This document shows positions 39,148 to 43,248 of a stretch of DNA of 64,000 nt, in pieces. Location: positions 441,013 to 505,012 of the forward strand of contig NZ_CP015101.1 in assembly GCF_002214465.1 (NCBI RefSeq). The letters run 5' to 3'. Position 1 is the stretch's first letter. The number at the start of each line of letters is the position of its first letter. The position numbers and the translations under genes are program-made. The notes under the pieces were generated by a model, which saw only the letters and a list, made by a program, of their open reading frames with translations, made no database searches and was not told the DNA's origin. Origin of the DNA: Thermococcus barossii. GTDB lineage: Archaea; Methanobacteriota_B; Thermococci; Thermococcales; Thermococcaceae.

Positions 39148-40548
39148 ATGCCTATGGTAGTCCTACGTATCCCGGACGGTTCGGCATTGGTGAAAATCGA
39201 GAAGGCTGACCCCCAGATTTACTTCAAGATATACGAGCTTCTGAGCTACAAAAAGGACTTCGGGAAATGGGAGAAGCCGGAGAGCCTCTACGACCCCTAC
39301 GAGAGAACTTTCCCAGTGGGGGTTCTTCCGAGGGTTAAGAAGTTCCTCAACTGCAAGGGTTATCGTGTGAGGATTAAGGACGAGCGGCAGGTCAAGGGGG
39401 TAAAGCTCAACTCCACATGGAATGGGAGCTATGGCATGCGCAGGTACCAGGAAAGGGCGATAAAAAAGGCCCTCAGAGAGAAGATGGGCGTTCTCTCCCT
39501 GCCGGTAGGGAGCGGTAAAACCGTTGTGGGTCTTAGGATAATCCATGAACTCGACCTCTCGGCGTTGATAGTCGTCCACACAAAGGAACTCCTTTACCAG
39601 TGGGCGGACAAGGTTAGAGAGGTTCTCGGCGTCGAGCCGGGCATAGTTGGGGACAACAAGTGGGACGAGCGCGGGGTTACCGTTGCCATGATACAGACCC
39701 TTCTATCGAGGGGTGCCGAGAAGCTCCAGAGCGACTATGCCATAGTGATGTTCGACGAGTGCCACAGAACGTCCGCCGCCGAGAAGTTCTATCAGCTTGG
39801 ACTCAGTCTTCCCCAGGTCTATCGCTTCGGCCTCTCCGCAACTCCATGGAGGCGCGTTCGCGGTGAGGAGATAAAGATTGAGGCCGTCGTCGGCCCGACG
39901 ATATTTGAGGTCAAGGCCGAGGATTTGATAAAGGAGAGGTTCTTGGCAAAGCCACGCTTTGAGATAATAACCTACGAATCGACAATGCCGTCATTCAGCG
40001 AGCGTTACAAGGAGCTGTACGAGGACATGATAATGAACAACGATGAACGGAACAGGGCCATAGTCAGGAAGGCCGTCGAGCTCGCCAAAAGGGGACACCG
40101 CATCCTCATCGACGTAAAGCGCATAGAACACGGCAAGATTCTGAAGGAAATGCTTGAGAGGGAGGGGGTAAAGGCCGAGTTCCTCAGCTCCCAGAGCCCC
40201 AACAGGTGGGAGATATTGGAGGCTTTTAAAGAGGGCGAGATTCCTGTCCTCGTTTCCACACTCCTGAAGGAGGGCGTTGATATACCAGAGATTTCGGCGA
40301 TAATCCTGGCCGGCGGTGGGAAGAGCGACATAATGACGATTCAGACGATAGGCCGTGCACTGAGGCCGAAGAGGGGTATGAAGGCGGTTATCGTTGATGT
40401 TCAGGACGATGATCCTCTGCTCTTCACGCACTTCATCGAGAGGCAGAAGGCGCTCAAGCAGTACTACGGCATGTACTACGACAGGGAGATGGCCTCAAAG
40501 CTCGATGAGAACGTCCCCAAAAAGGGCCGCTCTCGTAAGCGCTCTTGA
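39148..40548 (+). CDS. XPB/Ssl2-like DNA helicase
   Basis: This 466-residue SF2 helicase has an N-terminal about 90-residue region before the RecA cores. Motif I is LPVGSGKTVVG, Ia IVVHTKELLYQW, II MFDECHRTS, III LSATPWRR, V VSTLLKEGVDIPEIS and VI QTIGRALRPKRG. The DECH box and the GLSATPWR wording place it with archaeal XPB homologs, which act in repair or transcription. The basic tail (KKGRSRKRS) is encoded in the region overlapping truA by 54 nt on the opposite strand. The ATG at MPMVVLRIPDG was chosen. Confidence 0.9.
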   Translation: MPMVVLRIPDGSALVKIEKADPQIYFKIYELLSYKKDFGKWEKPESLYDPYERTFPVGVLPRVKKFLNCKGYRVRIKDERQVKGVKLNSTWNGSYGMRRYQERAIKKALREKMGVLSLPVGSGKTVVGLRIIHELDLSALIVVHTKELLYQWADKVREVLGVEPGIVGDNKWDERGVTVAMIQTLLSRGAEKLQSDYAIVMFDECHRTSAAEKFYQLGLSLPQVYRFGLSATPWRRVRGEEIKIEAVVGPTIFEVKAEDLIKERFLAKPRFEIITYESTMPSFSERYKELYEDMIMNNDERNRAIVRKAVELAKRGHRILIDVKRIEHGKILKEMLEREGVKAEFLSSQSPNRWEILEAFKEGEIPVLVSTLLKEGVDIPEISAIILAGGGKSDIMTIQTIGRALRPKRGMKAVIVDVQDDDPLLFTHFIERQKALKQYYGMYYDREMASKLDENVPKKGRSRKRS

Positions 40549-41298
40549 GTAGCGCTCGAAGATATCCCTCTTCGCCTTGTTGAGGCCCCTTTCATCCCCT
40601 TTGAACTCTATTCCCTCGTAGGTTATGTTCCACAGGATTAGGCCCTCAGGCCTCGCCGGAGGCACCTTTTTTCCGTAGTTCCCAGCGAGCATCCCCTCAA
40701 CTTCCCCCGGCTCCATGAGACCCAGTCCGCAGAGGCGGATTGCGTTGACTATCCTTCTCGCCATTTCCCACAGGAAGCTTTTGCCCTCAAGCTCTACAAC
40801 GTAGTAGCCGTGACGCCGGTTTATCTCAACCCGCGTCAGTTCTCTCACGGGGTCTTTTCCGGGTTCCAGCCTAGCAAAGGCGGAGAAATCGTGTGTCCCT
40901 GTGAATATGCGGGCACAGTCAATCATGGCTTCCTCCCTGAAACCCTCGTCTATCAGATAGTAGCGGTAGGTCTTTGACTTTGCCCAGAAGCGCGGATGGA
41001 AGTCGTCCGGAACCTCCGCAACGCCGAGAACCCAGGCATCACGGAGATGGTGGTTGAGAACCTCGGCGCGGATTAGGTGGGGCTTGGCCGAGACGTCGAA
41101 GCTCACAACGTTGAAGAACGCGGAGACGCCTCGGTCGGTTCTGGAGGCTCCCTTGAAGTTTGAGCTCTCGGCGTTCTCTATCACTCCAAGCTTTGATAGA
41201 ACCTTTATCAGCTCCCCTTCGACTGTCCTAACGTCCGGCTGTCTCTGAAATCCGTAGAATGCTGTCCCGTCATACGCTATCCTCAGGGCCATTCTCAT
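40495..41298 (-). CDS. truA: tRNA pseudouridine synthase TruA
   Basis: This enzyme converts uridines 38-40 of the tRNA anticodon stem-loop to pseudouridine. The 267-residue protein has LRIAYDGTAFYGFQRQP, the catalytic aspartate motif GASRTDRGVSA and the C-terminal GKSFLWEMARRIV. The last 54 nt overlap the convergent helicase gene, encoding the ARAALFGDVLIEL tail. A TATA-like CATTTATATCC lies about 20-30 nt upstream of the ATG. Confidence 0.94.
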   Translation of the reverse strand: MRMALRIAYDGTAFYGFQRQPDVRTVEGELIKVLSKLGVIENAESSNFKGASRTDRGVSAFFNVVSFDVSAKPHLIRAEVLNHHLRDAWVLGVAEVPDDFHPRFWAKSKTYRYYLIDEGFREEAMIDCARIFTGTHDFSAFARLEPGKDPVRELTRVEINRRHGYYVVELEGKSFLWEMARRIVNAIRLCGLGLMEPGEVEGMLAGNYGKKVPPARPEGLILWNITYEGIEFKGDERGLNKAKRDIFERYSRALTRAALFGDVLIEL

Positions 41299-41355: not shown

Positions 41356-41392
41356 TTTACAAATGTAAATGCCGATTTTGAATGGGATTCAA
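41356..41392. promoter_or_regulatory. Two tandem palindromes upstream of the 31-codon gene
   Basis: TTTACAAATGTAAA (41356-41369, perfect 6-bp arms around AA) and TTGAATGGGATTCAA (41378-41392, perfect 6-bp arms around GGG) lie side by side. Their centres are about 22 bp apart, close to two helical turns. They occupy the gap between the truA promoter and the 31-codon reading frame. The first resembles TACAnnTGTA operators known from bacterial metal repressors, which is only a pattern similarity. Confidence 0.35.
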
Positions 41393-41449
41393 TGAACCGT
41401 TGGAAAGATTGATAAAGGGCGTCTCCTACCCCCAATTGGAGGTGAGATT

Positions 41450-41545
41450 ATGGCTGAGATAGTTGACATGGAGATACTAACCAACGTCACGAACTTTGAA
41501 ATAATGTGCACACTGCTTCAGAAGGGATTAAAAAAGGAGGATTAG
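41450..41545 (+). CDS. 31-residue mini-protein
   Basis: An ATG behind the strong site GGAGGTGAG (spacing 3-4) opens a 31-codon frame with genome-like codons. The peptide starts MAEIVDMEILTNVTNFEIMC and ends LLQKGLKKED: an acidic first half, a hydrophobic middle that could form a helix, and a basic end. Its TAG overlaps the convergent pheT stop by 4 nt, so the frame fills the gap precisely. The near-perfect ribosome binding site, the tight fit and the palindromes upstream argue for a real gene; no family was recognised and no function is proposed. Confidence 0.55.
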   Translation: MAEIVDMEILTNVTNFEIMCTLLQKGLKKED

Positions 41546-43248
41546 AGGTAGGGTTCCCTGTAGAGCGGCCGTAGAAACAGCTCAAAGGCCGCCACAGGCA
41601 TTTCTATTCCCCAGTTTTCTAGGACTGCGGGGTGGATTTCGCCGATGATGCCGATTTCTTCCCCGTTCACAGTGATTCTCCCCACCCTGCCGGGGATGAA
41701 GCTCGGGTGCTCAACCTCTTCCAGCTCATACTCAAAGCCCAGGTGCCGCATAGCACTTTCGAGTATCTCCTTGGCCTCGGTGAAGGTTACGCGCGGGTGG
41801 GCCAGGGCAACGGCCAGCTTGCTCTCGCTCACGGTCTTTGTCTCTCTGGCCTCGTCTATCAGCGTGACCTTTCCTACCTCGAATATCTTCTGAGGGTACT
41901 CCTCGTGGGTGTTCTGGCTCAGGAAGTCGAGAAGGCTCGGAATGAGCCATCCCCTCAGGGCGGACCACTTGGGGCTTATAGGGTTCTCTATCTCAACCAG
42001 CTCCGCGGGCGGATTGTTGAAGTGGTTCCTGCCGTATTCCAGGTTCATTTTGTCATACTGGGCCTCCCTGTTGGTCAGGTTAAAGGTCATAACCTCCTGC
42101 AGGCCGAAACCAACCATCAGCTCTCTTACCGCGTCCTCAAACTCGATAAACTTGTCTCCCCTGCCCTGAACCGCTAACTTCGGTTCCTCCGGCTCTATCT
42201 CGTTGTAGCCGTAGGCTATGAGAACATCCTCCAGAACGTCGCGAGCGTGCATGATGTCGTCGCGGAATGCCGGGTAGAGCAGTTTCACCTTCCCATCAGC
42301 CAGCTCGACATCGTACATCATACGCTCTAGGAGGTTCTTCACGTCTCCGTCGCTTAGCTCCAGCCCGGTAAGCCTTTTGATGTAGTCCAGCTCGACCTCA
42401 AAGGACTTCGGGGTCAGGTCGGGTGTCTCGATTTCGAAGTCCGGATAGACCACCTTCACGCTCTTTATCTTCCCACCGCGCTCTGCCAGCGCCGTGACAA
42501 CGACGTTTAAAGCCAGCATTATCCTCTTCAAATCCCACCCGGTGACATCGACGAATACGTTTCTGGTTTCGGTCGTCACCCTTCCGGTTACCTCGGAGTT
42601 AATAATTGGGGGCATCGAGAGGACTTTTCCTTCGCTGTCCACAAGGAGCGGATAATAGGGTTTGTCCTTAATCAGACGCCCGTACTCCCTGCCTTTCTCG
42701 TGCTTTTCGAGGATTTCCTCAAGCGTAAGCTCCTCGTCAAAGCCGAGGGGGACGAACTTCTCGGTTCTCTCAGCGGCGCGGTAGTAGATAGGGGGTTTGA
42801 CCTTGTCGAAGTCGAAGATGCCTATCGCAACCTCCCTCCTTCTCCTCCCGAAGGTGAGGGCGACCTTCTCCTGGAGGTTGATCATCTGCTTAAGTGCTTC
42901 CTCATCGAGGTGCAGGCCCTCAACTATGGCGTAGACACCGTAGGGGCGGATGTCCTTCAGCTTCCCGTCAACGTAAACGGTGACACCGCTTTTCCCGACT
43001 TCATACCTCGGCAGACCTTTTTCCAGGCCAAGCGCCCAGCGTATCTGCCGCGCTATCCCCTCGGCGCTCCACAGGTCGGGCCTGTTGGTGTCCTTTGAGT
43101 CGGCCTTGAAGTAAACCTCACCGCCCTCCTCCCAGACGTCGTCCAGCTCGCACTTGGCATATAGGAATAGGTCCTCCCACTCCTCGACGGTGAAGCTCTT
43201 TCCGATGAGCCTCTCCAAATCCTGCTTTGACACGTCGAACTTCGGCAT
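41542..43248 (-). CDS. pheT: Phenylalanyl-tRNA synthetase beta subunit
   Basis: This 568-residue archaeal-length beta subunit lacks the extra N-terminal EMAP domain of bacteria. It begins MPKFDVSKQDLERLIG. The B3/B4 editing region lies around ALTFGRRRREVAIGIFDFDKV and the B5 domain around VELDYIKRLTGLELSDGDVKNLL. A catalytic-like core without activity follows, with FNLTNREAQYDKM and IENPISPKWSALRGWLIPSLL. It lies 9 nt downstream of pheS and forms the (alpha-beta)2 enzyme with it. Confidence 0.96.
   Translation of the reverse strand: MPKFDVSKQDLERLIGKSFTVEEWEDLFLYAKCELDDVWEEGGEVYFKADSKDTNRPDLWSAEGIARQIRWALGLEKGLPRYEVGKSGVTVYVDGKLKDIRPYGVYAIVEGLHLDEEALKQMINLQEKVALTFGRRRREVAIGIFDFDKVKPPIYYRAAERTEKFVPLGFDEELTLEEILEKHEKGREYGRLIKDKPYYPLLVDSEGKVLSMPPIINSEVTGRVTTETRNVFVDVTGWDLKRIMLALNVVVTALAERGGKIKSVKVVYPDFEIETPDLTPKSFEVELDYIKRLTGLELSDGDVKNLLERMMYDVELADGKVKLLYPAFRDDIMHARDVLEDVLIAYGYNEIEPEEPKLAVQGRGDKFIEFEDAVRELMVGFGLQEVMTFNLTNREAQYDKMNLEYGRNHFNNPPAELVEIENPISPKWSALRGWLIPSLLDFLSQNTHEEYPQKIFEVGKVTLIDEARETKTVSESKLAVALAHPRVTFTEAKEILESAMRHLGFEYELEEVEHPSFIPGRVGRITVNGEEIGIIGEIHPAVLENWGIEMPVAAFELFLRPLYREPYL

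Follow-up and report, generated by a model that had tools for sequence, protein, structure and literature searches.

The 31-codon open reading frame at positions 41450-41545 of the window (the whole 64,000-nucleotide stretch of Thermococcus barossii DNA that was analyzed) is a microprotein gene under purifying selection: its open frame is conserved across relatives and its dN/dS ratio lies well below 1. We regard it as virtually certain that the gene is real. In the explanation that we favor, its product is probably a helical microprotein that is specific to the family, has a promoter of its own, and works by docking on a larger partner.

The gene and its conservation

The features of the locus are as follows.

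40495..41298, minus strand: truA-like tRNA pseudouridine synthase gene, the divergent neighbor (Pfam PF01416)
41378..41392: candidate operator, an imperfect 15-bp dyad that is perfect in the window, TTGAATGGGATTCAA, 31 nt before the TATA-like box
41402..41416, plus strand: putative BRE/TATA-like promoter, GGAAAGA-TTGATAAA (TATA part 41409-41416), from TATA-like words conserved in relatives
41438..41446, plus strand: ribosome binding site GGAGGTGAG, with 4 nt from its GGAGGTGA to the ATG
41450..41545, plus strand: microprotein gene of 31 codons, MAEIVDMEILTNVTNFEIMCTLLQKGLKKED, with ATG at 41450 and TAG at 41543-41545 (ORF list, family-wide conservation and coding constraint)
41530..41535, minus strand: run of six A in the gene, which is a run of six T just 3' of the pheT stop and a probable pheT terminator
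41542..41545: 4 nt in which the stop codons of the microprotein gene and pheT overlap
41542..43248, minus strand: pheT, phenylalanyl-tRNA synthetase beta subunit, the convergent neighbor (Pfam PF17759, B5 and B3_4), with its TAA stop at 41542-41544

An earlier note on this DNA had described a 31-codon frame with an ATG after a ribosome site and an end at the pheT stop, and the locus was found to be exactly so. The frame occupies the 243-nt gap between the start of the truA-like gene (41298) and the end of pheT (41542). The same note had read the ribosome site and the frame as the sign of a gene, and this argument failed when taken by itself. The window contains 2 open reading frames of 20-60 codons that have a Shine-Dalgarno match of at least 7 nt, whereas 20 block-shuffled windows contain 3.15 on average and 9 at most. 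The anatomy alone is not above chance. The microprotein gene is lifted above chance because it is conserved across relatives, and at 82 of the 83 homologous loci the chosen start has a ribosome-site match of at least 4 nt to AGGAGGTGATC.

The coding constraint was determined from an alignment of 83 loci from 82 genomes (G061 contributes two), after 4 spurious loci of the 87 fetched had been dropped; the true loci of G025, G038, G051, G074, and G077 lie outside these counts. Across 21 codons around the core, in-frame stops were found in none of the 83 loci, whereas the other two same-strand frames contain a stop in 82 and 77 of them. The first, second, and third codon positions carry 25, 17, and 57% of the differences, respectively (333 pairs). 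The pooled dN/dS was determined to be 0.113 in frame (159 pairs), compared with 1.0 and 1.8 in the other two frames on the plus strand. Those on the minus strand gave 1.3, 1.75, and 0.22, the last of these being the frame that shares the wobble position. When each sequence was used only once, the ratio was 0.133 over 31 pairs, and pS exceeded pN in 28 of them. The Ka/Ks analysis that the earlier note had proposed came out clearly on the side of a protein-coding gene.

A six-frame search with the peptide (E up to 10) found matches, some of them spurious, in 84 of 94 Thermococcaceae genomes, and a profile built from 44 relatives found matches in 87 of the 94 (E up to 0.1), in keeping with the claim of a real small gene. 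Nearly all carriers have a single real copy. The peptide-search matches L079, L086, and L087 (G073, G074, and G077) and L081 (G053 C58) were spurious, with neither pheT nor truA nearby; the true loci of G074 and G077 were recovered later by the profile. A second copy at G023 C1:512234 was rejected as a weak match antisense to a membrane-protein-like ORF. Outside the family, 21 genomes from the rest of the phylum gave no convincing profile match and 2 weak partial ones. The weak matches in G100 and G102 (E 0.02, within frames of 442 and 617 residues) and in G065 C107 (E 0.03) were taken as chance.

Of the seven Thermococcaceae genomes with no match, five (G035, G048, G088, G010, and G091) are not judgeable because pheT is missing or cut by a contig end, and two (G012 and G034) are true absences. 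In G034 (L158), the pheT-truA distance is only about 100 nt, and the two genes enclose an in-frame relic (..SNVANFEVAWV..) that lacks E8, a promoter, and a usable start. In G012, pheT and a tdh-like gene, so named from its likeness to the window's own gene, are convergent and a few bases apart, and the microprotein gene has been cleanly deleted. These two lineages lost the gene through local deletion, and the decayed relic of G034 is the kind of remnant expected when a real gene is lost. They are also the only cases of the disruption in relatives that the earlier note had named as evidence against a gene. The microprotein gene is dispensable in some lineages, since the assembled genomes of G012 and G034 do without it.

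Promoter, leader, and upstream dyad

The microprotein gene appears, from the aligned sequences, to have a conserved start-codon context and promoter elements of its own. A TATA-like word was found at 78 of the 83 loci; 76 of these words lie 36-43 nt ahead of the start codon, and 45 read TTGATAA. These counts, like those for the dyad below, are not probabilities, because the patterns were picked after viewing the aligned sequences and because the loci are related to one another. The available text of a T. kodakarensis study gives a median TATA-to-TSS distance of 23 bp and a median leader of 16 nt (PMC4247193). Since this 23-bp median was applied here, the predicted start of transcription falls at about 41432-41438 and the predicted leader is about 12-18 nt long, close to the T. 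kodakarensis median of 16. The main texts of the TSS studies do not mention the microprotein locus under the terms tried. In the available portion of a P. abyssi ncRNA paper, none of the RNAs listed could be tied to the locus, and pheT terms are absent (PMC3124441).

Upstream of the promoter lies the dyad, with the consensus TTGRA-N5-TYCAA. At 61 of the 82 anchored loci, the pattern T[TC]G-N9-C[AG]A stands at a distance of exactly 31 nt before the TATA start, and it was found at no other place in the 50 nt scanned; in shuffled upstream sequences it appears anywhere in 2.5%. The arms have changed together (TCG..CGA) at 5 loci, with TCG..CAA at 10 and TTG..CGA at 1. The symmetry is only partial because of the TCG..CAA and TTG..CGA arms and because the inner positions are often unpaired. 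Among the 18 loci with no truA in the fetched stretch, 17 could be anchored and 11 of these 17 keep the dyad, for which reason it was assigned to the microprotein gene and not to truA.

The dyad is not enriched in its own genome, where TTGRA-N5-TYCAA occurs 12 times against 16 for the reversed control. A family-wide search with the TATA spacing fixed returned, among the matches listed, mainly microprotein promoters, CRISPR-repeat-like sequences, and scattered sites. The matches at G000:C1:407248-407284 and in many other genomes look like CRISPR repeats of the TTGCAATAAGACTCTAGGAGAATTGAAA type and were excluded by eye. No convincing further member of a regulon was found in the own genome or among the family-wide matches listed.

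The dyad was also observed at an equal TATA distance at L170 1501-1515 (G000:C1:577281-577295, outside the window). It precedes the gene for a protein of 203 residues whose N-terminus is hydrophobic and which matches no Pfam or NCBIfam family. This dyad was found in 4 of 30 fetched homologous loci (G000, G030, G070, and G042), and in G070 the arms have changed together (TTGGA..TCCAA). The L170 site is a lead and not a regulon.

The protein that binds the dyad may be of the Lrp/AsnC type, and three characterized operators were compared with it by eye. CopR of Pyrococcus furiosus, a regulator of the Lrp/AsnC family, binds TTNNCAWWWTGNNAA, which in the accessible part of the source is a 15-bp semi-palindrome (PMC7830388). 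It shares with the dyad this length and partial symmetry, TT/AA ends, and a place upstream of BRE/TATA, but its inner half-sites read CA...TG rather than RA...TY, and it lies directly upstream of the BRE whereas about 10 nt separate the dyad from the BRE (PMC7830388). The Tar operator of T. kodakarensis, TGGACA-N8-TGTCCA, is described in the portion of the source at hand as an activation palindrome upstream of BRE/TATA (PMC6737238). The dyad has this placement too, and some microprotein loci carry the TGGA...TCCA half-site, but the spacing is TGGA-N12-TCCA for Tar and TGGA-N5-TCCA for the dyad (PMC6737238). The TFB-RF1 operator, given as TCTG-N5-CAGA in the available text (PMC5937170), is likewise a palindrome at a conserved distance upstream of a Thermococcales BRE. 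Its half-sites and spacing are unlike those of the dyad, and the G023 locus has TCTG-N10-CAGA, with equal half-sites and a different spacing (PMC5937170). The published consensus sites of CopR, Tar, and TFB-RF1 do not fit the dyad.

The boundary with pheT

The truA gene was found within the fetched stretch at 65 of the 83 loci. In the examples read, the other upstream neighbors were Thy1, an alcohol-dehydrogenase-like gene (tdh), a gene with an alanyl-tRNA-synthetase-type domain, or an unassigned gene. The 3' ends of the microprotein gene and pheT overlap at 58 of 82 loci, while 13 loci have the two genes within 1-48 nt of one another and 11 have them separated by 412-483 nt. At L033, L049, L052, L055, L061, and L075, the frame extends 81-234 nt antisense into pheT, and the resulting C-terminal tails are unrelated. 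In the three separated loci that were examined (L059, L066, and L062, from G093, G087, and G063), a membrane-protein-like gene of 140-144 residues lies between pheT and the microprotein gene; the G093 copy has no Pfam family. Archaeal-type PheT was also observed in the spirochaete contigs L132, L135, L136, L138, and L139 (32-38% identical), and the transfer of archaeal-type PheT to spirochaetes is already known.

The earlier note had pointed out an acidic-hydrophobic-basic pattern in the peptide. This pattern is meaningful only in part, since the basic tail varies and falls on the T-run that follows the convergent pheT. Runs of at least five A were found in 61 of 83 C-terminal segments compared with none of the 83 (shorter) N-terminal segments; shuffled segments reach the observed A-run 24% of the time on average, and base composition accounts for much of it. 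The lysine-rich tail may be written in part by the pheT terminator.

The best placed of the alternatives, which we nevertheless consider unlikely, is that the microprotein serves phenylalanyl-tRNA synthetase as a regulator or an accessory subunit and that its gene for this reason still lies beside pheT. In its favor, pheT is the nearest downstream neighbor at 71 of 82 loci and is retained when the upstream truA gives way to Thy1, the alcohol-dehydrogenase-like gene, or others. The two losses can be read in both directions, in that G012 and G034 kept pheT and lost just the segment adjoining it, but PheT also persists there without the microprotein gene. The genes are convergent and therefore not co-transcribed, more than 400 nt come between them at the separated loci, and interlocked 3' ends would suffice to hold the two together without any functional link. 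By its position, the synthetase is a possible candidate partner. A broader and rather doubtful proposal is that of a Thermococcaceae-specific regulatory microprotein with a dedicated operator, whose helix would control phenylalanyl-tRNA synthetase or another core translation enzyme. If this were true, a 31-residue protein would couple amino-acid status to translation in hyperthermophiles.

The overlap with pheT could also mean that the locus acts mainly as an RNA antisense to the 3' end of pheT, which would tune the pheT mRNA and leave the open frame incidental. The frequency of the overlap and the frames that run into pheT would agree with this, and antisense transcripts to the 5' or 3' regions of mRNAs are common in T. 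kodakarensis according to the available text (PMC4247193). However, the strong constraint acts at the protein level, a comparison of the locus with Rfam gave no family near threshold, and the gene is conserved at the 11 loci where pheT is more than 400 nt away. We find this explanation quite improbable, although the transcript may have a secondary antisense role alongside the protein.

The protein and its probable mode of action

E8 and N15 are invariant across the 83 loci, and residue 18 is I or L in all 83. Nearly invariant are M19 (82), F16 (81), E17 (74, with Asp in the remaining 9), K25 (74), and D6 (72). The single cysteine noted earlier is present and is not conserved, since this position is C in 32 of 83 loci and otherwise L, Y, F, K, S, W, I, or M. 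The first few residues are dispensable, as the genus-3 proteins begin at the residue immediately preceding D6. With an alignment of 20 sequences, AlphaFold2 predicted a single helix over residues 7-30 with a mean pLDDT of 88, in which D6 would serve as the helix N-cap. A one-sided amphipathic helix was not significant by permutation (p 0.45 for hydrophobicity and 0.74 for conservation), and a one-sided docking face is therefore not established.

No relative was found in Pfam, NCBIfam, PHROGs, or the PDB sequences, where the best stray E-values were 0.14, 0.043, 0.44, and 0.028, respectively. No earlier description of the peptide or its NFEIM motif was found among the literature search results. 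Conserved archaeal microproteins are already known as a kind, and no earlier record of this one as a family was found.

A small toxin, for example of a type I toxin-antitoxin pair, would likewise be short and rich in hydrophobic residues. The charged or polar residues D6, E8, N15, E17, and K25 stand at fixed places of the predicted helix, the gene is near-universal with one real copy in nearly all genomes, and no match was found in plasmids and phages; this explanation is highly improbable. A short ORF next to a tRNA-synthetase gene, with so strong a ribosome site, might suggest a leader or upstream-ORF peptide whose role would be to sense translation and control the gene that follows. This reading can be set aside, because the next gene is not co-directional but convergent, with an overlap at the stop in most loci, and because leader peptides are usually not conserved residue by residue over a family. 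Just as negligible is a chance ORF behind a chance ribosome site, which does arise at the observed rate but is contradicted by the family-wide presence, the coding constraint, the invariant residues, and the dyad.

We favor the explanation that the microprotein is helical and acts by docking to a larger partner. Its own BRE/TATA promoter would provide for independent transcription, and the short predicted leader and strong ribosome site for translation. The 15-bp dyad is probably bound by a dimeric regulator. The product would be a single alpha-helix beginning at an N-capping Asp6, from which E8, N15, F16, E17, I/L18, M19, and K25 could dock onto a conserved larger protein or complex, and the microprotein would then be a regulatory or stabilizing subunit of that partner. 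Such docking is, at slightly better than even chance, the most likely mode of action.

The family lies at the edge of the length limits of gene finders and is nearly universal in an archaeal family. The Thermococcaceae include the genetically tractable model species T. kodakarensis and P. furiosus. The regulator, the partner, and the phenotype are directly testable because an invariant motif, a promoter, and a candidate operator are in hand, and the two natural losses in G012 and G034 serve as in-built controls.

Small proteins of Methanosarcina mazei offer the closest comparisons. The small protein sP26 is reportedly linked to glutamine synthetase, and is said to be an archaeal microprotein that is conserved within its lineage and acts on a housekeeping enzyme. 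The Thermococcaceae microprotein belongs to a different lineage and is likened to sP26 by description only. The Mtr complex is methanogen-specific and, to our knowledge, absent from the Thermococcales. In M. mazei, the sORF-encoded small protein MtrR modulates this complex, according to the accessible part of the source (PMC13370731). What the two proteins would share, by description only, is the character of an sORF-encoded archaeal modulator.
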